Shown here: positions 1 through 62,860 of the stretch, piece by piece
Position numbering within the stretch: the first letter of the stretch is position 1
Layout of the letters: every line of letters begins with the position of its first letter
NCBI RefSeq assembly: GCF_014652455.1
Contig: NZ_BMYV01000001.1
Coordinates: 868,001-932,000, forward strand
Reading direction: 5' to 3'
From: Litorimonas cladophorae
Lineage (GTDB): Bacteria > Pseudomonadota > Alphaproteobacteria > Caulobacterales > Maricaulaceae
Length of the DNA stretch: 64,000 nucleotides
Position numbers and translations under genes: made by a program
Notes under the pieces: generated by a model
Database searches by the model: none
Told to the model about the DNA's origin: nothing
What the model saw: only the letters and a program-made list of their open reading frames with translations

Positions 1-472
1 CCTCAGCCGTATAACCTCCGAATTGATCGAGAAGTTCGATGTGTGTTGTCGGGTCCAGCAAGCCACGACCGTCGTGCTGACCGTGAACTTCGAGCAATTT
101 TCGTCCAAGCTCTGAGAGCAGTTTAACGCTCACGGCCTGATCATTTACGAAAGCCCGGCTACGCCCGTCCGCTGTCACCGTGCGACGGAGCGTCAGGTCC
201 TCGGATACGTCATACTCGATGTCTTGATCTTGCAAGATTGACCAAGCAACGTGCGTGTCGGACAATGTGAAACTTGCGCTGCATTGCGCTTTGTCTGTTC
301 CCGCGCGAACAAGCCCCCGGTCTGACCGCGCGCCCGTTGCCATGCCTAATGCATCCAGCAATATCGATTTACCCGCACCCGTTTCACCCGTTAAAGCGGT
401 AAGGCCCCGGGTAAAGTCCAGATCGAGTTGTTCGATCAGGACAACATTACGGACAGATAGCCCCGATAACAT
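1..472 (-). CDS. recN: DNA repair protein RecN, N-terminal part (gene runs off the window)
   Basis: SMC-like ATPase that organises broken DNA ends for recombinational repair in the cytoplasm. About 157 N-terminal codons are present. Reading on the minus strand from ATG at 472 the protein begins MLSGLSVRNVVLIEQLDLDF, followed at about residues 28-43 by a Walker A loop (GETGAGKSILLDAL) as in RecN, and near residue 127 by the VHGQHD motif typical of the RecN Q-loop/coiled-coil entry. The start lies 5 nt after the bamD stop, so it is probably co-transcribed with bamD; bamD-recN adjacency is common in alphaproteobacteria. The C-terminal coiled coil and Walker B are outside the window. Identification is firm, completeness cannot be judged. 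Confidence 0.93.
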   Translation of the reverse strand, partial: MLSGLSVRNVVLIEQLDLDFTRGLTALTGETGAGKSILLDALGMATGARSDRGLVRAGTDKAQCSASFTLSDTHVAWSILQDQDIEYDVSEDLTLRRTVTADGRSRAFVNDQAVSVKLLSELGRKLLEVHGQHDGRGLLDPTTHIELLDQFGGYTAE

Positions 473-26670: not shown

Positions 26671-27401
26671 GCGGCAACCGCGCGGGCCAAGAGACTTAAG
26701 CGCTTAAGCACGTCTAAAATCTGCATATCAATCACGCCATTAATTTTGCCCGGGCGATAGCGACGTTGAACGGCCCGAATAACGGCTTGTGTCTGATCAT
26801 CCAAGCAACCTGTCACACTGACCCCATACCCAAGATCGGCGAGACCGCGCTGAATGATTGATATACCCCGATCACGGTCACCCGCTTCAAATACGATCCG
26901 CTCATCTTCGGTCAGGTCACTCGGCCAATGCCCAATGCCGGCTGCAGCCAGTCCAGCCCAAGGAAAATGCTCACCTGGGTCTTCTTTGCGGTCTGGTGCA
27001 ATGTCCGAGTGCCCAACGATATTTGCGGGCCTTATGTTATGACGCGCGACAATTTCTTTACACAGCTTGATAACAGCGAGAATTTGCACGTCGGGGTAAG
27101 CTGGCAATTTTCCGTCTGCCGTCAGCACATTATGCCCGCCGTTTACGATCTCAATGCCAATGCTGGCTGAATTCACATCGGAGATGCCATTCCAGCTGCC
27201 GACGCCCGCATGCCAAGCCCGCTTATCTTCATCGACGAGGCTCTCGACCTCGCCGGCTTCTGTGACAAGCCAATGCGCGCTGACCTCGGCTTGTGGGTCG
27301 CACAGACGTTCACGGGCACAATCAGCCGTCTCCATACCCGTATAATGCAATACAACCATGGTAATCGGCAGCTTACGATCATTGAAGTTCCGGCTCTTCA
27401 T
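26667..27401 (-). CDS. N-acetylmuramoyl-L-alanine amidase (Amidase_2, AmiD-like) with peptidoglycan-binding tail
   Basis: Zinc amidase that cleaves the MurNAc-L-Ala bond or scavenged muropeptides. The 244-residue product has the Amidase_2 domain (about 10-160) with zinc ligands His19 (VVLHYTG), His131 (VGHSDIAP) and Asp141 (KEDPGEHFPW), and a C-terminal PG_binding_1-like helical domain (about 180-240). No signal peptide is visible, so it is probably cytoplasmic like AmpD, although the binding tail is more usual in exported AmiD. Gene order EamA-DUF1801-amidase with ATGA overlaps indicates an operon. Confidence 0.9.
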   Translation of the reverse strand: MKSRNFNDRKLPITMVVLHYTGMETADCARERLCDPQAEVSAHWLVTEAGEVESLVDEDKRAWHAGVGSWNGISDVNSASIGIEIVNGGHNVLTADGKLPAYPDVQILAVIKLCKEIVARHNIRPANIVGHSDIAPDRKEDPGEHFPWAGLAAAGIGHWPSDLTEDERIVFEAGDRDRGISIIQRGLADLGYGVSVTGCLDDQTQAVIRAVQRRYRPGKINGVIDMQILDVLKRLSLLARAVAA

Positions 27402-53762: not shown

Positions 53763-53857
53763 CGCCCTAGGTCCGCTTACGCGGTCGATTTGGGCTATTT
53801 TGAGATATCCGCATGTCGCGGATAACGAAACTGGAAGACTTTGGGGGTTTTCGTAAT

Positions 53858-56800
53858 ATGAAACGCACTCTTTTACTGGCCGCATCGGCCGCGGTTTTAG
53901 CCGCACCAACACTCGCTCAGGAGCTGCCACCGGGCAATCCGCTCCCAGGCGAATGCTTTGCTCGTGTTATCGTACCAGCACAGTATCAAACTTCGACTGA
54001 GCAGGTTGTTCTGCGCCAAGCCGGTGAAGAGATCAAAAAGATCCCTGCTCAGCTTGAAACAGTCACAGAACGCGTTCTTGTCCAAGAAGAGAGCTATGAG
54101 CTCTTCGTTGCTGGCGGCGGTTCTGTCGTTCCAGGCCGGGGCCGTGTAACTGTCACGATTGACGGAACACCCTACACAATCGATTCCTCCAGAACTGTTA
54201 CGAATGCTGCGGGCGCGCGCATCGGTAACGTTGATGCCTCCGGTAATATTGTTGCTTCGAATGGCAGCGTATTGGCCGCAAATGCCGTTAACCCCCTCAC
54301 ACTCATCGGCACAGGGTCTTCACGTACACGTCTCGTCGTCGGCGGCACCACTTACTCGGTTGCCTCTAACGGGACTGTTTACAACGCCTCAGGCTCCAGC
54401 ATTGGTTCACTTGACGGATCAGGCAACATCGTCGCATCTGGTGGCAACATTGTTTCACGCTCCGCTGTGAATGCTTATCAAGGTGGTAACACATCTGGCC
54501 GCGCATCCTTCCGCACAGTCTCCGAGACTGTTGTCGTTCAGGAAGCCAGCACAGAACTCGTTGCTATCCCGCCTGTATACGAAACAGTTTCCGAAACTGT
54601 CGTCGTTCAGCCAGAGTCGGTTGAATACGTCACGATCCCAGCTGTCTACGAAAACTACACAGAAACAGTCGTTGTTCAGGAAGCCAGCACAGAGCTCGTC
54701 ACTGTCCCAGCTGTTTTTGAAACAGTTCAAGAAACAATCGTTGCTCAGGAATCTGCAACTCAGCTCGTCACAATTCCTGCAACTTATGAAACAGTTTCCG
54801 AGACAGTTGTCGTTCAGCCTGCGTCTGTTGAGTACACAGTCATCCCTGCGGAGTTTGAAACTGTAACTGAGCAAGTTGTTGCACAAGAAGCGGCAACAGA
54901 GCTCGTCACTGTACCAGCGACCTACGAAACAGTCACAGAGACTGTGGTTGTCCAAGAAGCTTCAACTCAGCTCGTCACTGTACCGCCCGTTTTTGAAACA
55001 GTCAGCGAAACAGTTGTCGCACAAGAAGCGTCTACTGAGCTTGTGACAATCCCAGCGGTCTTCGAAACCGTCACTGAAACAGTTGTCGTTCAGCCAGCTG
55101 GCGTCGAATATGTAACTGTTCCAGCCGTCTTCGAGACAGTTTCAGAAACAATCGTTGTTCAAGACGCCTCGACAGAGCTCGTCACAATCCCAGCGACATT
55201 TGAAACAGTCAGCGAAACAGTTGTTGTTCAGGAAGCGTCAACAGAGCTTGTCACAGTTCCAGCTGTGTTCGAAACTGTCACTGAAAGCGTCCTCGTCCAA
55301 GCAGCAAGCACGCAGTTGGTCACAATTCCAGCGACGTTCGAAAACGTTACTGAAACCGTTGTCGTTCAGCCAGCTGGTGTAGAGTATTCAGTTCTACCTG
55401 CTGAGTACGAAGACTATGCAGAAACGATCGTTGTTCAGGAAGCTAGCACTGAGCTGGTCACAATCCCTGCATCCTTCGAGACTGTCACTGAAACAGTCGT
55501 CGTTCAGCCAGCAACTGTTGAGTATCAAGTTGTCCCACCTGTTTATGAAACAGTGTCGGAAACAATGGTTGTTCAAGAGGCCTCTACAGAGCTTGTCTCT
55601 ATTCCAGCGACATTCGAAACAGTCAGCGAAACAGTTGTTGTTCAGCCTGCTACGGTTGAATATGTAACTGTTCCAGCCGTTTATGAGACAGTCTCCGAGC
55701 CAGTTATCGTTCAAGAAGCTTCAACTGAACTCGTTACAATCCCAGCGACATTCGAAACGGTCACTGAAACAATCGTCGTTCAGCCTGCTGGCGTCGAATA
55801 TGTGTCTGTCCCTGCTGAGTATGAAAACTACACGGAGACTTTGGTCGTTCAGGAAGCGTCAACCGAACTGGTTACGATCCCTGCGACATTCGAAACTGTC
55901 TCCGAGACTGTTGTTGTTCAGCCTGCAACAGTTGAATATGTCTCTGTCCCTGCGGTCTATGAGACCGTGTCAGAGGCCGTCGTTGTTCAAGAAGCCTCTT
56001 CCGAGATGGTTACTATTCCAGCGTCCTTCGAAACTGTGACTGAAACCGTCGTCGTCCAGCCTGCTGGCGTCGAATATGTAACGGTTCCAGCTGTCTTTGA
56101 GACTGTATCCGAAGCTGTTGTCGTTCAAGAAGCGTCAACTGAACTCGTCACAATCCCAGCGACATTCGAAACAGTGAACGAAACAATCGTCGTTCAGCCA
56201 GCGTCCGTCGAGTATGTCTCGGTCCCTGCTGTTTATGAGACAATTCAAGAGCCAGTCGTTGTTCAAGAAGCGTCCACGACACTCGTAACTGTCCCTGCGA
56301 CTTATGAGACTGTGACTGAAACCGTCGTCGTTCAGCCTGCTACGGTTGAATATGCAGCTGTCCCAGCCAAGTACGAAACCTACAACGAAACGATCGTTGT
56401 TCAGGAAGCGTCCACAGAGCTCGTCTCTGTCCCAGCTGTCTATGAAACAGTCACTGAAACCGTTGTCGTCCAGCCTGCTGGCGTCGAATATGTAACGGTT
56501 CCAGCTGTCTTTGAGACTGTGTCCGAAGCCATCGTCGTTCAAGAAGCGTCGACTGAACTCGTTACAATCCCAGCGACATTCGAAACTGTGACTGAAACTG
56601 TTGTCGTTCAGCCAGCATCCGTCGAGTACGTCTCTGTCCCAGCTGTCTATGAGACAGTGTCAGAGCCAGTTGTCGTTCAAGAAGCATCGACCGAACTCGT
56701 CACAATCCCAGCGACATTCGAAACTGTAACTGAGACTATCGTCGTTCAGCCTGCTGGCGTCGAATATGTGTCCGTTCCAGCTGTTTTTGAAACCGTCTCT

Positions 56801-59800
56801 GAGACTATCGTTGTCCAGGAAGCGTCCACAACACTCGTAACTGTCCCGCCTGTCTTTGAGACAGTGACAGAAACAGTTGTCGTTCAACCGGCGTCCGTCA
56901 CATATGAAACAGTCCCGGCTGTCTTCGAAACTGTGTCCGAAGCCATCGTCGTTCAAGAAGCATCGACTGAACTCGTCACAATCCCAGCGACATTCGAAAC
57001 TGTCACTGAGACCGTTGTCGTTCAGCCAGCGTCCGTCACTTACGCGTCTGTCCCAGCTGTCTATGAGACAGTTTCAGAAGCGATTGTTGTTCAAGAAGCA
57101 TCAACTGAACTCGTTGTTGTTCCAGCAACCTTCCGTGACGTCACTGAAACAGTGGTTGTTCAAGATGCCAGCACAGAGCTCGTCTCTATTCCGGCAACTT
57201 ACGAGAACGTGACTGAAACAGTCGTCGTTCAGGAAGCCACAACAGAGCTCGTCACTGTGCCCGCTACGTTTGAAACAGTGACTGAAACAGTCGTCGTTCA
57301 GCCTGAAACAGTCGAATATGTCTCTGTTCCAGCGCAATATGAGACTTTCTCTGAAACCGTTGTTGTTCAGGAAGCCAGCACAGAGCTCGTTTCTATCCCA
57401 GCGACTTATGAGAACGTGACTGAAACAGTCGTGGTTCAGGAAGCTGCAACAGAACTTGTCGTCATCCCAGCAACTTATGAGACCGTGTCTCAAACTGTTG
57501 TTGTTAAGGAAGCGACAGCCGAGCTGATCACGGTCCCAGCGACATTCAAAAATGTTACTGAAACTGTTGTCGTGCAGCCTGCATCTGTCACTTATGAGAC
57601 TGTCCCTGCTGTATACGAAACATACAATGAGACACTCGTTGTTCAGGAAGCGTCGACTGAACTCGTCGTCACGCCTGCAACATATCGCGATGTCACAGAA
57701 ACAATTGTTGTTCAGGAAGCCAGCACAGAGCTCGTCTCTATTCCGGCCGAATACGAGACTGTTACAGAAACAGTCGTCGTTCAGCCTGAAACTGTTGAGT
57801 ATGTGTCCGTTCCAGCGCAGTTCCGCACTGAGAACCAGCAATATGTCCAACAGGAAGCGGCTAACACGCTGACAATCATCCCAGCTGTCTATGAGACAGT
57901 GACGGAAACGATTGTGACGCAAGAAGCCTCCACACGTATTGAGGTCGTTCCAGCGACATACAAAACCGTCACTGAGACGATTGTTGTCACCCCAGAGCGC
58001 ACCGAAATCGACGTGATCCCGGCGAAATACGAAACACGTTCAGAGCGCGTTTTGATTGAACCAGCTCGCGAAGAGTGGAAGCCAGGCTCACAAGCCATCA
58101 ACTCCGGCGTTTTCTCTGGCGGACGTGTGAACACTGCAACACGCGGTCAATTCACTGTCTTTAACGGCGTATCTAACCAGGTCGTCGAATCCACAGAGAC
58201 TATCGTGAACCAGACGGGTGAAATCCTTTGCCGCGTCTTGATCCCTGCGAAATACAAAACAATCACAAAACAGGTTGTTGTCTCCCCGGCTCGTGCCGTT
58301 GAGCGTCGTATTCCAGCTGTCACACGTACAATCAGCAAACGTGTTGTTGATCGCGAAGCGTCGACACGCGAAGTTGCTGTTCCAGCCGTCACAGACACAT
58401 TGACACGTCGCGTTGTTAAGACACCAGCTCGCGTCGTTGACGCATCTGGCGCTTCCTTCGCTGGCGGAACACGTATCCGTGGCTTCGTTGATGCAAACCG
58501 CGACGGTCGTGATGACCGTGATGGTTTGGGTGAACGCGATGCGCTGAACGCGGATCGTACAGCCGGTGGTGAGCGTCTTGTCGGCGCAAGCAACTCCGGC
58601 GGTCAGTTCGGTCAGAAGATGGGCTCCGTTTCAACACGTGTTGTTGCAGAAGCAGCAAAAGTTGTTGAGCGCCGCGTCCCAGCTGTAACGAAAACACTCA
58701 GCAAGCGCGTTGTGAAAACTCCAGCCCGCACAGTTGAGCGTACTGTCCCAGCCGTGACGTCCACAGTGACACGCCGTGTTGTTGACCGCCCAGCCGCTAC
58801 GGTTGAGCGCTCGATCCCAGCCGTCACAAAAACGGAAACACGTCGTCGCATCAAGACGCCGGCTCGCACAGTTGAACGCGCTATCCCAGCCGTCACAAAA
58901 ACTGTGTCCCGTCGTGTTGTTGACCGTCCAGCGTCCACACAGGAACGTATGATCCCAGCCGTGACTAAGGTTGAGACACGCCGCGTCGTTAAGACACCGG
59001 CCCGCACGCAAGAGCGGACAATCCCTGCGAAAACATCGACTGTCACACGTCGCGTCGTGAAGACGCCTGCGTCGACACAAGAGCGGACAATCCCAGCTGT
59101 GACTAAAGTTGAGACCCGTCGTCGTGTGAAGACACCGGCAGCAACTGTTGAGCGTCGCGTTCCAGCGGTCACGAAGCAGGTTTCTCGTCGTGTTGTGAAA
59201 ACACCAGCCTCCACGGTTGAGCGTGCGGTTCCAGCGGTTACGAAAACCCGGACACGTCGCGTCGTTAAGACACCAGCGTCGACACAAGAGCGGACAATCC
59301 CAGCCGTAACACAAACTGTTACGCGCCGCGTTGTTGACCGCCCTGCGTCTACTCAGGAACGTGTCATCCCAGCTGTCACGAAGATGGAAACACGCCGCGT
59401 CGTTAAGACACCGGCTGCGACTGTCGAACGTTCAGTTCCAGCTGTGACCAAGCAAGTGTCCCGTCGTGTTGTTAAGACACCAGCACGGACACAAGAGCGC
59501 TCAATCCCAGCTGTTACGAAGATGGAAACACGCCGCGTCGTTAAGACACCAGCGCGTACTGTCGAGCGTAGTATCCCAGCTGTAACCAAGCAGGTCACAC
59601 GTCGTGTGGTGAAAACGCCAGCCTCTGTTGCTGAACGTACGATCCCAGCTGTGACCAAGCAGGAAACACGTCGCGTCGTTAAGACACCGGCTCGCACAAT
59701 CGAACGTGCAACACCGGCTGTAACGAAGCAGGTTTCCCGTCGTGTTGTTAAGACACCAGCGCGGACACAAGAGCGTTCAATCCCAGCTGTCACAAAGATG

Positions 59801-62800
59801 GAAACACGCCGCGTCGTTAAGACACCAGCGGCAACCATTGAACGTGCAATCCCAGCTGTGACCAAGCAAGTGTCCCGTCGTGTCGTTAAGACACCGGCAC
59901 GGACACAAGAGCGTTCAATCCCAGCTGTCACAAAGATGGAAACACGCCGCGTCGTTAAGACACCAGCGTCAACCATCGAACGTGCAACACCGGCTGTGAC
60001 CAAGCAGGTCTCCCGTCGTGTCGTGAAAACGCCAGCCAGCACAATCCAACGTGCCGTCCCAGCTATCACGAAGACAGAAGCTCGCCGTCGTGTCGCCACG
60101 CCAGCAGCCACTGTTGAGCGTCGTGTCCCAGCTGTGACCAAGCAAATCAGCCGCCGCGTCGTGAAAACGCCAGCGTCGACTGTTGAGCGTGTTGTTCCAG
60201 CCGTCACCAAGATGGAAGCGCGTCGTGTCATCAAGACACCAGCGTCAACTATCGAACGTGCAATCCCAGCTGTGACCAAGCAAGTGTCCCGTCGTGTTGT
60301 TAAGACACCGGCACGGACACAAGAGCGTTCAATCCCAGCTGTTACAAAGATGGAAACACGCCGCGTCGTTAAGACACCAGCGTCAACTATCGAACGTGCA
60401 ACACCAGCTGTGACCAAGCAGGTCTCCCGTCGTGTCGTGAAAACGCCAGCGCGGACAACTGAACGTGCCATCCCAGCTGTCACAAAGATGGAAACACGCC
60501 GTGTCGTTAAGACACCAGCGTCAACTATCGAGCGGACAGTACCGGCGGTCACAAAAGTTGTTTCTCGTCGTGTTGTTAAGACACCGGCCTCTACACAAGA
60601 GCGTCGCGTCCCAGCCATCACGAAGACGGAAACACGTCGTCGCATCAAGACACCGGCGCGCACAGTCGAACGTGCAACACCGGCCGTTACGAAGCAGGTC
60701 TCCCGTCGTGTCGTGAAAACGCCAGCGCGGACAACTGAACGTGCCATCCCAGCTGTCACAAAGATGGAAACACGCCGCGTCGTTAAGACACCAGCGTCAA
60801 CTATCGAACGGACTGTACCAGCGGTCACGAAGCAGGTATCTCGCCGCGTCGTGAAAACACCAGCGTCTACGCAAGAGCGGACGATCCCAGCGGTCACGAA
60901 AGTGGAAACACGTCGTGTCGTTAAGACGCCAGCTCGCACTGTAGAGCGCACTGTCCCAGCTGTGACGAAACAAGTCTCTCGTCGTGTTGTTAAGACACCG
61001 GCCTCTACACAAGAGCGTCGTGTCCCAGCGATCACGAAGACGGAAACACGTCGTCGCATCAAGACACCGGCTCGCACAGTCGAACGTGCAACACCGGCCG
61101 TTACGAAGGCTGTCACACGCCGCGTCGTCAAGACACCGGCAAGCGTCACAGAGCGTACGGTTCCAGCCATCAGCAAGCCTGTCACACGCCGCGTCGTGAA
61201 GACACCGGCCCGCGTGACTGAGCGTCGTATCCCTGCGGTCACGAAGGTGGAAACACGTCGCGTCGTCAAGACACCGGCCAGCACGCAAGAGCGTACGATC
61301 CCGGCTGTTACGAAGACGGAAACACGTCGTGTGGTCAAAACACCAGCGTCCACAATCGAACGCGCTATCCCAGCGGTCACCAAGCAAGTCTCCCGCCGTG
61401 TTGTTAAGACACCAGCGCGTGTGACTGAGCGGTCGATCCCAGCGGTAACGCGTCAGGTTGAACGCCGTGTGATGCGTACGCCAGCGTCAACTCAGGAACG
61501 TACGATCCCAGCTGTAACCAAGCAGGTCAGCCGTCAGGTCGTCAAAACACCTGCACGCACTGTTGAGCGGACTATTCCGGCAACAATGCAGGCTGTTACG
61601 CGCCGCGTCGTCAAGACACCGGCTCGTACGGTTGAACGCACAATCCCAGCTGTGACCAAGCAAGTTACTCGCCGCGTCGTCAAGACACCGGCTCAAGTAA
61701 CAGAGCGGACGATCCCAGCTGTGACGAAACAGGTCGCGCGTCGTGTCATGAAGACACCAGCGTCAACTGTTGAGCGTACGATCCCAGCCGTGACAAAGAC
61801 GGAAACTCGCCGTCGCATCAAGACACCGGCATCGACGCAAGAGCGTCGTATCCCGGCTGTTACGAAGCAGGTCACACGTCGTGTTGTTAAGACACCAGCG
61901 CGGACGACAGAGCGCACGATCCCAGCGGTCACCAAGCAGATCACACGTCGTGTGGTTGATGGTGCCCCACGTATCGAGCGCCGCGTCATCCCTGCCCGTT
62001 ATGACACAGTCCAAGTTCAGCGCGTGGTTCAGCCCGCACGGACAGAAACTGTTGTTATCCCGGCGCAGTTCGGAACGATCGAACGTCGTACACAAACAAG
62101 CCCGGAAAAAGCCGAATGGCGCCAGGTTCTTTGTGAAGCCAACGCAAGCCCAACTGTCATTCGCGCCATCCAGCGCGCTCTACAGACAGAAGGCTTCTAC
62201 TCTGGCGCACTTGACGGACAGCTAGGTCGCGCGACCTACGCCGCAGTCGAGCGCTTCCAAGAGGCTCGTGGACTGTCCACGGGTGGCCTGACGCTCCGTA
62301 CGGTCGACGCTTTGGGTGTTAACTGGCGCTCAATGGTCTCTGGCAACCAGCTTAGCTCGGGTGGCTTCACTTCAGGTGGCGTCGCAACGGGTACAACTGG
62401 TGGCTTCACTACAGGCACCACAGTCACAACAACGACTGGCGGTGCAAGCGGTGGCGCAGCAGGGTACACAATCGGCTCCGATAACTCGGTCCGCAACGCA
62501 AGCGGCGTCATGATTGGCACACTTCGTGCGAATGGCGACGTTGTGAACAGTGCAGGTCAAGTCATCCTTCGCGGTCTATCCGCAACGGGCGGCGCGGTGA
62601 CAACGGGCTCTATGTCCGGTGGCTCTATGACAACTGGCGGCTTGAACACACGTTCAAACGTTGGACGCTCCGGCGGCACGGTCCTTAACAATGGTACAGC
62701 CACGACAACAACGTCGGGCGCCATGTCTGCGGGTGACTTCACAGTCCGCGCTGACGGTACGGTTGTGAACACATCCGGTGCTGTTATCGGTCGCGTCAAT

Positions 62801-62860
62801 GCGAACGGCGAAATCATCGCCAATGGCCAAGTCATTGGTCGGGTTCGCCCACGTAACTAG
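53858..62860 (+). CDS. Giant exported repeat protein (3000 residues) with C-terminal peptidoglycan-binding domain
   Basis: Intact single frame, start at ATG 53858, which gives a clean signal peptide (cleavage after Ala20); an upstream ATG at 53813 would bury it. Layout: Cys33 head with two repeats; Gly/Asn modules (102-210); 51 exact 23-residue repeats plus a terminal one (218-1410), acidic, typified by ETVVVQ and ELVTIPA; linker and second head with Cys1458; an Asp-rich insert (DANRDGRDD, about 1545); 50 basic 23-residue repeats (1611-2760), typified by RRVVKTPA and ERTIPAV; Cys2759 and a PG_binding_1 domain (2764-2822, VIRAIQRALQTEGFYSGALD); Gly/Asn modules again (2869-2997). Only three Cys in the mature chain. 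The head-repeat-PG-binding plan matches much shorter proteobacterial proteins, here hugely amplified in both halves. Role: probably a wall-anchored fibre or matrix; unproven. Confidence 0.9.
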   Translation: MKRTLLLAASAAVLAAPTLAQELPPGNPLPGECFARVIVPAQYQTSTEQVVLRQAGEEIKKIPAQLETVTERVLVQEESYELFVAGGGSVVPGRGRVTVTIDGTPYTIDSSRTVTNAAGARIGNVDASGNIVASNGSVLAANAVNPLTLIGTGSSRTRLVVGGTTYSVASNGTVYNASGSSIGSLDGSGNIVASGGNIVSRSAVNAYQGGNTSGRASFRTVSETVVVQEASTELVAIPPVYETVSETVVVQPESVEYVTIPAVYENYTETVVVQEASTELVTVPAVFETVQETIVAQESATQLVTIPATYETVSETVVVQPASVEYTVIPAEFETVTEQVVAQEAATELVTVPATYETVTETVVVQEASTQLVTVPPVFETVSETVVAQEASTELVTIPAVFETVTETVVVQPAGVEYVTVPAVFETVSETIVVQDASTELVTIPATFETVSETVVVQEASTELVTVPAVFETVTESVLVQAASTQLVTIPATFENVTETVVVQPAGVEYSVLPAEYEDYAETIVVQEASTELVTIPASFETVTETVVVQPATVEYQVVPPVYETVSETMVVQEASTELVSIPATFETVSETVVVQPATVEYVTVPAVYETVSEPVIVQEASTELVTIPATFETVTETIVVQPAGVEYVSVPAEYENYTETLVVQEASTELVTIPATFETVSETVVVQPATVEYVSVPAVYETVSEAVVVQEASSEMVTIPASFETVTETVVVQPAGVEYVTVPAVFETVSEAVVVQEASTELVTIPATFETVNETIVVQPASVEYVSVPAVYETIQEPVVVQEASTTLVTVPATYETVTETVVVQPATVEYAAVPAKYETYNETIVVQEASTELVSVPAVYETVTETVVVQPAGVEYVTVPAVFETVSEAIVVQEASTELVTIPATFETVTETVVVQPASVEYVSVPAVYETVSEPVVVQEASTELVTIPATFETVTETIVVQPAGVEYVSVPAVFETVSETIVVQEASTTLVTVPPVFETVTETVVVQPASVTYETVPAVFETVSEAIVVQEASTELVTIPATFETVTETVVVQPASVTYASVPAVYETVSEAIVVQEASTELVVVPATFRDVTETVVVQDASTELVSIPATYENVTETVVVQEATTELVTVPATFETVTETVVVQPETVEYVSVPAQYETFSETVVVQEASTELVSIPATYENVTETVVVQEAATELVVIPATYETVSQTVVVKEATAELITVPATFKNVTETVVVQPASVTYETVPAVYETYNETLVVQEASTELVVTPATYRDVTETIVVQEASTELVSIPAEYETVTETVVVQPETVEYVSVPAQFRTENQQYVQQEAANTLTIIPAVYETVTETIVTQEASTRIEVVPATYKTVTETIVVTPERTEIDVIPAKYETRSERVLIEPAREEWKPGSQAINSGVFSGGRVNTATRGQFTVFNGVSNQVVESTETIVNQTGEILCRVLIPAKYKTITKQVVVSPARAVERRIPAVTRTISKRVVDREASTREVAVPAVTDTLTRRVVKTPARVVDASGASFAGGTRIRGFVDANRDGRDDRDGLGERDALNADRTAGGERLVGASNSGGQFGQKMGSVSTRVVAEAAKVVERRVPAVTKTLSKRVVKTPARTVERTVPAVTSTVTRRVVDRPAATVERSIPAVTKTETRRRIKTPARTVERAIPAVTKTVSRRVVDRPASTQERMIPAVTKVETRRVVKTPARTQERTIPAKTSTVTRRVVKTPASTQERTIPAVTKVETRRRVKTPAATVERRVPAVTKQVSRRVVKTPASTVERAVPAVTKTRTRRVVKTPASTQERTIPAVTQTVTRRVVDRPASTQERVIPAVTKMETRRVVKTPAATVERSVPAVTKQVSRRVVKTPARTQERSIPAVTKMETRRVVKTPARTVERSIPAVTKQVTRRVVKTPASVAERTIPAVTKQETRRVVKTPARTIERATPAVTKQVSRRVVKTPARTQERSIPAVTKMETRRVVKTPAATIERAIPAVTKQVSRRVVKTPARTQERSIPAVTKMETRRVVKTPASTIERATPAVTKQVSRRVVKTPASTIQRAVPAITKTEARRRVATPAATVERRVPAVTKQISRRVVKTPASTVERVVPAVTKMEARRVIKTPASTIERAIPAVTKQVSRRVVKTPARTQERSIPAVTKMETRRVVKTPASTIERATPAVTKQVSRRVVKTPARTTERAIPAVTKMETRRVVKTPASTIERTVPAVTKVVSRRVVKTPASTQERRVPAITKTETRRRIKTPARTVERATPAVTKQVSRRVVKTPARTTERAIPAVTKMETRRVVKTPASTIERTVPAVTKQVSRRVVKTPASTQERTIPAVTKVETRRVVKTPARTVERTVPAVTKQVSRRVVKTPASTQERRVPAITKTETRRRIKTPARTVERATPAVTKAVTRRVVKTPASVTERTVPAISKPVTRRVVKTPARVTERRIPAVTKVETRRVVKTPASTQERTIPAVTKTETRRVVKTPASTIERAIPAVTKQVSRRVVKTPARVTERSIPAVTRQVERRVMRTPASTQERTIPAVTKQVSRQVVKTPARTVERTIPATMQAVTRRVVKTPARTVERTIPAVTKQVTRRVVKTPAQVTERTIPAVTKQVARRVMKTPASTVERTIPAVTKTETRRRIKTPASTQERRIPAVTKQVTRRVVKTPARTTERTIPAVTKQITRRVVDGAPRIERRVIPARYDTVQVQRVVQPARTETVVIPAQFGTIERRTQTSPEKAEWRQVLCEANASPTVIRAIQRALQTEGFYSGALDGQLGRATYAAVERFQEARGLSTGGLTLRTVDALGVNWRSMVSGNQLSSGGFTSGGVATGTTGGFTTGTTVTTTTGGASGGAAGYTIGSDNSVRNASGVMIGTLRANGDVVNSAGQVILRGLSATGGAVTTGSMSGGSMTTGGLNTRSNVGRSGGTVLNNGTATTTTSGAMSAGDFTVRADGTVVNTSGAVIGRVNANGEIIANGQVIGRVRPRN
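54161..54454 (+). repeat. Gly/Asn-rich module, two N-terminal copies inside the giant gene
   Basis: Two copies (54161-54277 and 54341-54454) of a roughly 38-residue unit with the pattern Y-T-I/V ... T-V-x-N-A-x-G-x-x-I-G-x-x-D-x-S-G-N-I-V-A-S. The same unit occurs twice near the 3' end (62462-62566 and 62735-62848). Confidence 0.75.
54509..58027 (+). repeat. Acidic array: 51 tandem 69-bp units (23 residues each)
   Basis: Unit boundaries fall exactly every 69 bp from 54509; a degenerate 52nd unit starts at 58028. Each encodes aromatic-E-T/N-V, ETVVVQ, then either EASTEL-VTIPA or PA-S/G/T-VEYV-VPA; the two types alternate over much of the array, giving a 138-bp super-period. Units 2-38 contain three to four Glu each and only one Lys, no Arg. 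Confidence 0.9.
58490..58516 (+). other. Dockerin/EF-hand-like Asp-rich loop in the giant protein
   Basis: Encodes DANRDGRDD (D-x-N-x-D-G-x-x-D), the spacing of calcium-binding loops, inside a repeat-free insert (58435-58625) that separates three leading basic units from the main basic array. Only one loop is present, so calcium binding is a suggestion. Confidence 0.4.
58688..62068 (+). repeat. Basic array: 49 tandem 69-bp units (23 residues each)
   Basis: Exact 69-bp register from 58688 to 62068, with a 50th, diverging unit at 62069. Units read T-K-x-V/E-x-R-R-V-V-K-T-P-A then ER-x-I/V-PAV; a V-S type and an M-E-T type alternate (138-bp super-period). Each carries about five to six Lys/Arg against one or two Glu. 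Blocks such as 59851-60035 and 60265-60449 differ at only 4 of 185 bases, showing recent duplication. Confidence 0.9.
62462..62848 (+). repeat. Gly/Asn-rich module, two C-terminal copies inside the giant gene
   Basis: Copies at 62462-62566 and 62735-62848 share the N-A/T-S-G-x-x-I-G and A-N-G-x-x pattern with the two N-terminal modules, so the same unit brackets the whole repeat region. A Thr/Gly/Ser-rich linker lies between them. Confidence 0.7.

Follow-up and report, generated by a model that had tools for sequence, protein, structure and literature searches.

The locus and its protein

The window, by which we mean the whole stretch of 64,000 nucleotides of Litorimonas cladophorae analysed here (contig NZ_BMYV01000001.1, positions 868,001 to 932,000; host genome G000, 3.02 Mb), carries an open reading frame of 3015 aa on the forward strand (53813..62860) without internal stop. 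Similarity to the orthologue L019 begins only at the start codon at 53858 (MKRTLL), and translation likely starts there, though the frame is open from 53813. An initial annotation of this DNA had placed the start of a single uninterrupted frame at the same codon and had read in it a signal peptide, 2+52 and 4+50 repeat units and a C-terminal PG_binding_1 domain; all of these were borne out (the signal peptide by eye), the units amounting to 54 per half when counted from the head Cys to the closing Trp. The parts of the protein are as follows.

53858..53920 (+), signal peptide of Sec type without a lipobox at the cleavage site (by eye; compared with L015 and L019)
53954..53956 (+), Cys1 (residue 48), at the base of the proposed hairpin, one of just three Cys in the protein
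53972..54109 (+), N arm, units 1-2
54110..54496 (+), N-arm insert close to the base, overlapping a match to the 5-fold beta-flower PF21785 below its cut-off (23.9 bits against 38)
54497..58084 (+), N arm, units 3-54, acidic (about -3.3 per unit), with Trp at the close
58085..58240 (+), tip loop with the conserved QFTVFNG..GEILC, including Cys2 (residue 1473, 58229-58231)
58241..58447 (+), C arm, units 1-3, basic
58448..58606 (+), C-arm insert close to the tip with an Asp-rich DANRDGRDDRDG motif, found in 15 of 26 full-length orthologues
58607..62125 (+), C arm, units 4-54, basic, with Trp at the close
62132..62134 (+), Cys3 (residue 2774), which would adjoin Cys1 at the base if the hairpin is correct
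62159..62314 (+), PG_binding_1 domain, residues 2783-2834 (38.5 bits, cut-off 23)
62315..62860 (+), Gly/Ser/Thr-rich tail with motifs resembling those of the N insert (by eye)

PG_binding_1 (PF01471) was the sole domain over its Pfam cut-off in the window protein and reached 45.5 bits in the genome search. A match to HxsA (TIGR03979) over residues 2755-2836, a stretch made up of the last part of the C arm plus the PG-binding domain, scored 41.5 bits against an equivalog cut-off of 121.65. The lipobox of an outer-membrane-to-wall tether lipoprotein is absent, the signal ending in ...APTLAQ/ELPPG (by eye) and the first Cys being residue 48. We take the Asp-rich DANRDGRDDRDG motif of the C insert to resemble a calcium loop. 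The regions 54110-54496 and 62315-62860 share similar beta-flower-like motifs (by eye; PF21785 below its cut-off in the first) and would lie together at the base of the hairpin proposed below. Antisense open reading frames of up to 676 aa within the arrays were taken as by-products of the repeats. Another PG_binding_1 domain lies elsewhere in the window (26706-26867, reverse strand, 32.5 bits, in a frame of 248 residues).

Split at its 'PA' anchors, the protein resolves into 23-residue units in nearly perfect phase. The consensus of the N half is IPAxFETVTETVVVQ(E/P)ASxExVT, with a charge of about -3.3, and that of the basic C half is IPAVTKxxxRRVVKTPAxTxERx, with an approximate charge of +4.1 from a tally that mixed two phases; summed over the units found, the N arm carries -174 and the C arm +207. 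The arms are old and constrained, given a dN/dS of 0.06-0.12 and synonymous differences of 0.50-0.61 per site against three relatives (L015-L017). In a comparison of seven species, orthologous units were 72-92% alike between species, against 61-69% for the remaining units of equal parity. In the window protein and the five relatives scanned, the arms drew no Pfam or NCBIfam match over its cut-off; matches to Caudo_bapla_N (24.5 of 26.7 bits), ARM_TT21_5th (21.3 of 27.8) and PRK14069 (23.1 of 123) fell below theirs and were taken as chance.

Distribution of giant and short forms

Of the 48 loci from searches with the C-terminal end, 32 aligned along most of the query at 63-93% identity; the records of these close relatives mainly bear the labels Hellea, Robiginitomaculum, Caulobacterales or Hyphomonadaceae. 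Within the host family, 51 of 131 genomes match at E <= 1e-20, 37 of them with the giant type (eight genera) and 14 with a short form of 395-418 aa (a single genus, g241); the other 80 are without a match at this threshold, which may miss diverged short forms. The frame is open over 2465-3052 aa in 26 of the 37 giant-type genomes, while among the 11 shorter ones nine reach the end of the contig or of the sequence examined and two (L044, L128) have a disrupted frame containing unread bases. The count of 26 full-length giants used throughout leaves out 13 partial or broken loci (L018, L020-L022, L024-L026, L035, L039, L043, L044, L050 and L128). At class level, a short homologue as query matched 30 of 289 genomes at 1e-6, many through the PG-binding end alone, and at phylum level an arm-containing query matched 18 of 398 genomes (host genome included) at 1e-10.

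Across 22 loci, the gene is flanked by a HAD-type gene (19/22), rplU (21/22) and rpmA (20/22), and these shared flanks suggest vertical inheritance at one place. None of six candidate viral stretches was confirmed as a relative. A plasmid search with rplU returned no close relative of the host, and one with the short homologue returned a single weak and partial match. The host genome also encodes a 462-aa paralogue (L063:1031-2419, contig 2 of G000) with 4/4 arms by hand count and without a Pfam or NCBIfam match.

Equal numbers of units in both arms

Units were counted from the head Cys to the closing Trp. The window protein has 54 units in each arm, and among the 26 full-length giants 18 are 54/54, five are 46/46 and three, all from MAGs, are unequal (L023 54/50, L046 52/48, L033 42/41), by either a bulge or assembly loss. 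Some arms came out one or two units short in the program count, degenerate units having been missed and left as 46-residue gaps, and arm lengths settle these cases; in L029 one spurious unit was called within the insert. When units are numbered backwards from the Trp, the first to follow the C insert takes its expected place in 26 of 26 giants, and so does the first to follow the N insert, the third N unit serving as checkpoint in the four species without an N insert.

The 46/46 forms occupy two branches of a tree built from the tip and C-terminal segments, in which several forks are open: L029/L031/L032/L036 (support 100/100) and L019, with L024 and L035 (88/87). The latter two have C arms of 48 units and cut N arms. 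On a third branch, L128 (G331:C4) has 46 N-arm units and a C arm broken in the record into separate frames with unread bases. The site of the 8-unit loss in the 46/46 forms was tried as an orientation test; alignments to seven 54/54 references scatter, often near the middle, and with so variable a placement the loss cannot separate the orientations.

Equality extends to the short homologues. The program counted 4/4 in 25 of them, and hand counts gave 4/4 in L189-L192, L194, L154, L195, L197, L199, L201, L202 and the paralogue L063:1031-2419, 3/3 in L203, 11/11 in L188 and 12/12 in L054 (both of Bacteroidetes type with an OmpA end); for L054 the program gave 8/11 and the figure is that of the hand count. 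L198 (G569:C37) has two tiers, 3+3 against 3+3 by hand count, with breaks at mirrored places, and this nested form suggests growth by hairpin insertion at or near the tip. No usable count was obtained for L147 (8 units, midpoint unrecognised), L149 (no row), L205 (no full module) and L193 (a fragment).

Copying of one arm to the other does not account for this equality, because the arms are built of different unit types. An assembly artefact is also unlikely, since two genomes assembled as one contig, G293 (L124) and G332 (L125), have 54/54 and the type-strain DSM records give 46/46 (L019) and 54/54 (L037). The initial annotation had named a collapsed or expanded repeat number with frameshifts as a possible error, which the single-contig genomes make unlikely. 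It had also supposed kinship with short proteins of the plan Cys head, units, Trp, Cys head, units, Trp, LC and PG-binding domain, from which both repeat segments had been amplified more than tenfold. The search for homologues and repeat counts that it advised, yielding the 26 giants and the short homologues with the PG-binding end, supports this kinship and gives 54 units per arm against 4 in the short relatives.

Mirrored covariation between the arms

Two residues served as markers, Tyr or Phe instead of Val at position 8 of N units and Arg or Lys instead of Val at position 12 of C units. They were chosen after inspection of consensus strings of a few unit positions, whereas the mutual-information map described below scans all pairs. 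In the window protein the marked units are N 5, 16, 22, 30, 44 and 48 and C 7, 11, 25, 33, 39, 50 and 53, and each marked N unit is 55 minus a marked C unit; the partner of C unit 53 precedes the N insert and was not scored. With unit i facing unit n+1-i, all marked N units of the 23 equal-count species face a marked C unit (110/110), a figure that, the species being related, does not stand for 110 independent events. In the reverse direction, 110 of 115 marked C units face a marked N unit and five have no marked partner. Of the 107 registers offering 40 or more comparisons, the runner-up reached 46/71 (at most 65%), and a parallel pairing of the arms was rejected, its best registers being 46/71 and 53/94 against 110/110 for the antiparallel one. 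Within single species, where the test is independent of kinship, hypergeometric p ranged from 4.5e-5 to 2.7e-10 (six tested).

Marker positions vary by lineage, with nine pairs in L037 and pairs at 18 and 36 in L027 and L028, and the 46/46 species obey 47-i. At the 11 positions with an N mark in any of the 18 species with 54/54 arms, partners agree except in two one-sided cells, both in L127; three further partnerless C marks lie outside those 11. Tyr8-type and Arg12-type members of a pair are gained and lost together across lineages. In the three unequal MAGs, marker pairs match if those on one side are numbered from the tip and those on the other from the base; the two blocks are offset by 4, 4 and 1 units.

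Mutual information pooled from the 23 species, with 12 shifted registers as reference, is strongest for N8-C12, N6-C14, N11-C7 and N9-C7 (position sums 20, 20, 18 and 16), followed by N6-C15, N1-C20 (both sum 21) and N4-C14 (18). The mean excess is highest at sums 20, 18, 16 and 21, and total mutual information was 29.0 at the true register against 20.2-25.9 at the shifted ones. This is the pattern expected of an antiparallel beta-ladder with its diagonals. In the same register Glu6 and Glu10 of the N unit would adjoin Lys6, Arg10 and Lys14 of the C unit. Conservation is lowest in N51 (0.46) and C4 (0.50), two units that lie opposite one another next to the C insert.

Structure models

In the AF2 model of the short homologue L049 (mean pLDDT 83.8), the residue numbers of all nine strand pairs sum to 228, and both arrays share a pattern of 12- and 7-residue strands. 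The model of the window protein's tip gave strand sums of 370 (one end 369) and then, past the C insert, 423 (one end 422), with a single long interruption of the N strand facing the C insert. Strand pairing was taken from DSSP output and the ranges of the alignments. The pTM values were low (0.31 and 0.22), as a long thin model may give. Expressed in unit numbering, the AF2 strand sum is 19 and the centre of the covariation ladder 18, a difference of one; sum 21 also shows some excess.

VIA-align of the L049 model returned fits including two-stranded hairpin stems (lysenin 5gaq, iota Ib) with first and last aligned residues summing to 227-228. For the tip model the sums were 416-427, which ranges spanning the whole model (e.g., 1..425) would give anyway. 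Z for the arms was only 2.0-2.9, and some of the rows are not hairpins. Foldseek gave no match at E 0.001 or below, a result that says nothing on the fold. A PDB sequence profile search found the PG-binding end, and the weaker hits, admitted up to E 10, likewise fall on this end or close to it.

Of the six giants examined, four have exactly three Cys (head, tip and after the last Trp; 48, 1473 and 2774 in the window protein), while L125 carries four additional Cys and L034 one additional Cys near the start. All six retain Cys2 at the tip. In L049 the Cys are residues 9, 123 and 221, and since Cys 9 and Cys 221 sum to 230, against a strand sum of 228, they lie close in the modelled ladder and a base-closing disulfide is plausible. 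A tip-loop motif of FTVFNG type occurs in 23 of the 26 giants and, with a widened pattern, the Asp-rich loop of the C insert in 15 of 26.

A proposed zipped hairpin and alternative readings

Unit counts, mirrored covariation and the ladder are read from the sequences themselves, and the models support a hairpin geometry. We therefore regard it as highly probable that the protein is one chain folded into a PG-anchored beta-hairpin of two strands zipped by charge, each arm about 1240 residues long. In this proposal the exported chain would fold back at the conserved tip loop, and each of the 54 acidic N units would pair antiparallel with a basic C unit (i with 55-i), so that the arms zip into one two-stranded beta-ribbon bending at facing 'PA' pairs. 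The register would be held by salt bridges from Glu 6/10 to Lys 6, Arg 10 and Lys 14 and by the Tyr8-Arg12 pairs. Cys1 and Cys3 may close the base, where the PG-binding domain would sit, and the tip loop would form the opposite end. A straight ribbon would measure about 0.4 micrometres (1242 residues x 0.33 nm), and the PA bends could shorten it much. Under the proposal, an unpaired unit would break the zipper, and unit number would thus shift in both arms jointly.

The arms might instead pair between molecules, as a domain-swapped antiparallel dimer or a larger ribbon polymer. The covariation register is identical for intra- and intermolecular contacts, and the Cys2 conserved in six giants could link tips. 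However, the AF2 single chains of L049 and of the window tip have strands mirrored about the tip, and in the related module of L051 the tip is so tight ('GYEYNGQT' between the arms) that a swap would be less natural; we consider pairing between molecules unlikely. Less likely again is that each array folds alone, as a beta-meander or solenoid, the two bodies lying face to face and their equal length reflecting a size match. The 12/7-residue strand pattern common to both arrays would suit such an arrangement, but a meander of 12- and 7-residue strands with two-residue joints should leave unpaired strand ends, whereas DSSP marks whole strands; moreover, the one long break of the N strand lies opposite the C insert and the covariation obeys a single antiparallel ladder.

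The initial annotation had read an extended fibre or matrix of 108 like units. The single frame, the wall-binding end and the repeats in both halves fit this, but with independent arrays the equal counts across changing n and the 110/110 mirrored pairs, both of which that annotation missed, are unexplained, so that it is strongly disfavoured and, in our judgement, very improbable. The structure prediction that it had advised, run on L049 and the window tip, gave strands mirrored about the tip. The stalk, sheath or adhesion structure that the annotation suggested drew no support from the results. Hardly more credible are by-products of DNA-level duplication such as copying between arrays: tandem repeats do recombine and amplification must have occurred sometime, but the arms consist of different unit types, copying predicts parallel and not mirrored order (best parallel register 46/71), and today orthologous units resemble each other more closely than other units do, with no sign of recent homogenisation.

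Relation to known systems and possible role

Nearest to the zipped hairpin proposed here are the short 4/4 PG_binding_1 proteins (L049, 363 aa; L047, 382 aa; L129-L142, 395-418 aa), which likewise have Cys heads, equal arms each closing in Trp, 'PA' bends and a PG-binding end (PG_binding_1 over its cut-off in L047, L048 and L049). The window protein follows their plan of Cys head, n units, Trp, tip Cys, n units, Trp, LC and wall-binding domain, with 54 and 54 units and Cys at 48, 1473 and 2774. The short proteins differ in having 4 units per arm, against 46-54 in the giants, in arms that are not charge-polarised where computed (N +1 to +2 and C +12 in L049 and L052), and in a lipobox-like motif present in 24 of the 26 checked and absent from the window protein. 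Relatives from Bacteroidetes (L054, L188-L192) have the same heads, units and equal arms (4/4, 11/11 and 12/12 by hand) and differ in carrying an OmpA end instead of PG_binding_1 (PF00691, 58.5 bits in L054; by eye in the rest).

In the cytoplasmic coiled coils of SMC and Rad50 the chain folds back at a tip and equal N and C halves pair antiparallel; the fold-back plan is alike, although here it would be built of beta-strands in an exported protein. The beta-hairpin stems of pore-forming proteins (lysenin, iota Ib) offer a similar geometry of a long, two-stranded antiparallel ribbon. Among giant repeat adhesins, MpAFP of a Gram-negative cold-water bacterium is described as having roughly 120 tandem Ig-like repeats of 104 residues (PMC4083281). 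It shares with the window protein a very large size and repetitiveness. As regards Ig-like or RTX adhesin repeats, no Pfam family of any kind exceeded its cut-off on the arms. We know of no paired arms in giant adhesins of this type. A literature search recovered no description of a protein like the one in the window; one may exist in subscription papers.

The signal peptide and the wall-binding end would place the protein in the envelope. For its cellular job, our best guess is a mechanical one, an envelope strut or fibre, elastic on the wall, and the lipobox-like motif suggests that the short 4/4 homologues may be outer-membrane-to-wall struts of like design. More tentatively, and with considerable doubt, the giant may form a largely straight intramolecular beta-zipper of 0.3-0.4 micrometres with its base on the wall and a conserved binding tip, acting as a strut or ruler (e.g., along a prostheca or outward from the cell) whose length is set by the paired unit number. 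The link to the prostheca would be an analogy from the habit of the family, of which Algimonas porphyrae is described as prosthecate (PMC11556061).

Tandem-repeat proteins are usually read as single arrays with drifting copy number, whereas in these proteins one chain holds two arrays locked together unit by unit. Such arms range from 3/3 to 54/54, in records with the labels Alphaproteobacteria, Bacteriovoracaceae and Bacteroidetes kin, and their pairing is readable from sequence alone, giving a testable rule that unit i touches unit n+1-i. The proteins would represent a natural charge-complementary beta-zipper of scalable length and an envelope structural family whose arms match no domain model in either of the libraries scanned. 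They raise the questions of how two arrays grow in step and how they are exported and zipped without tangling, and of arms of 42-54 units being seen in this one family only.

Hairpin-type units also occur in other protein contexts. Two von Willebrand A-like proteins (by eye; L053:1490-3901 and L055:9356-11779) carry them N-terminally, L053 with a Tyr8 unit alongside an Arg12 unit and L055 with neither seen, and a SIMPL-like protein (by eye; L051:9533-10366) has a C-terminal 3/3 hairpin module with a very short tip.
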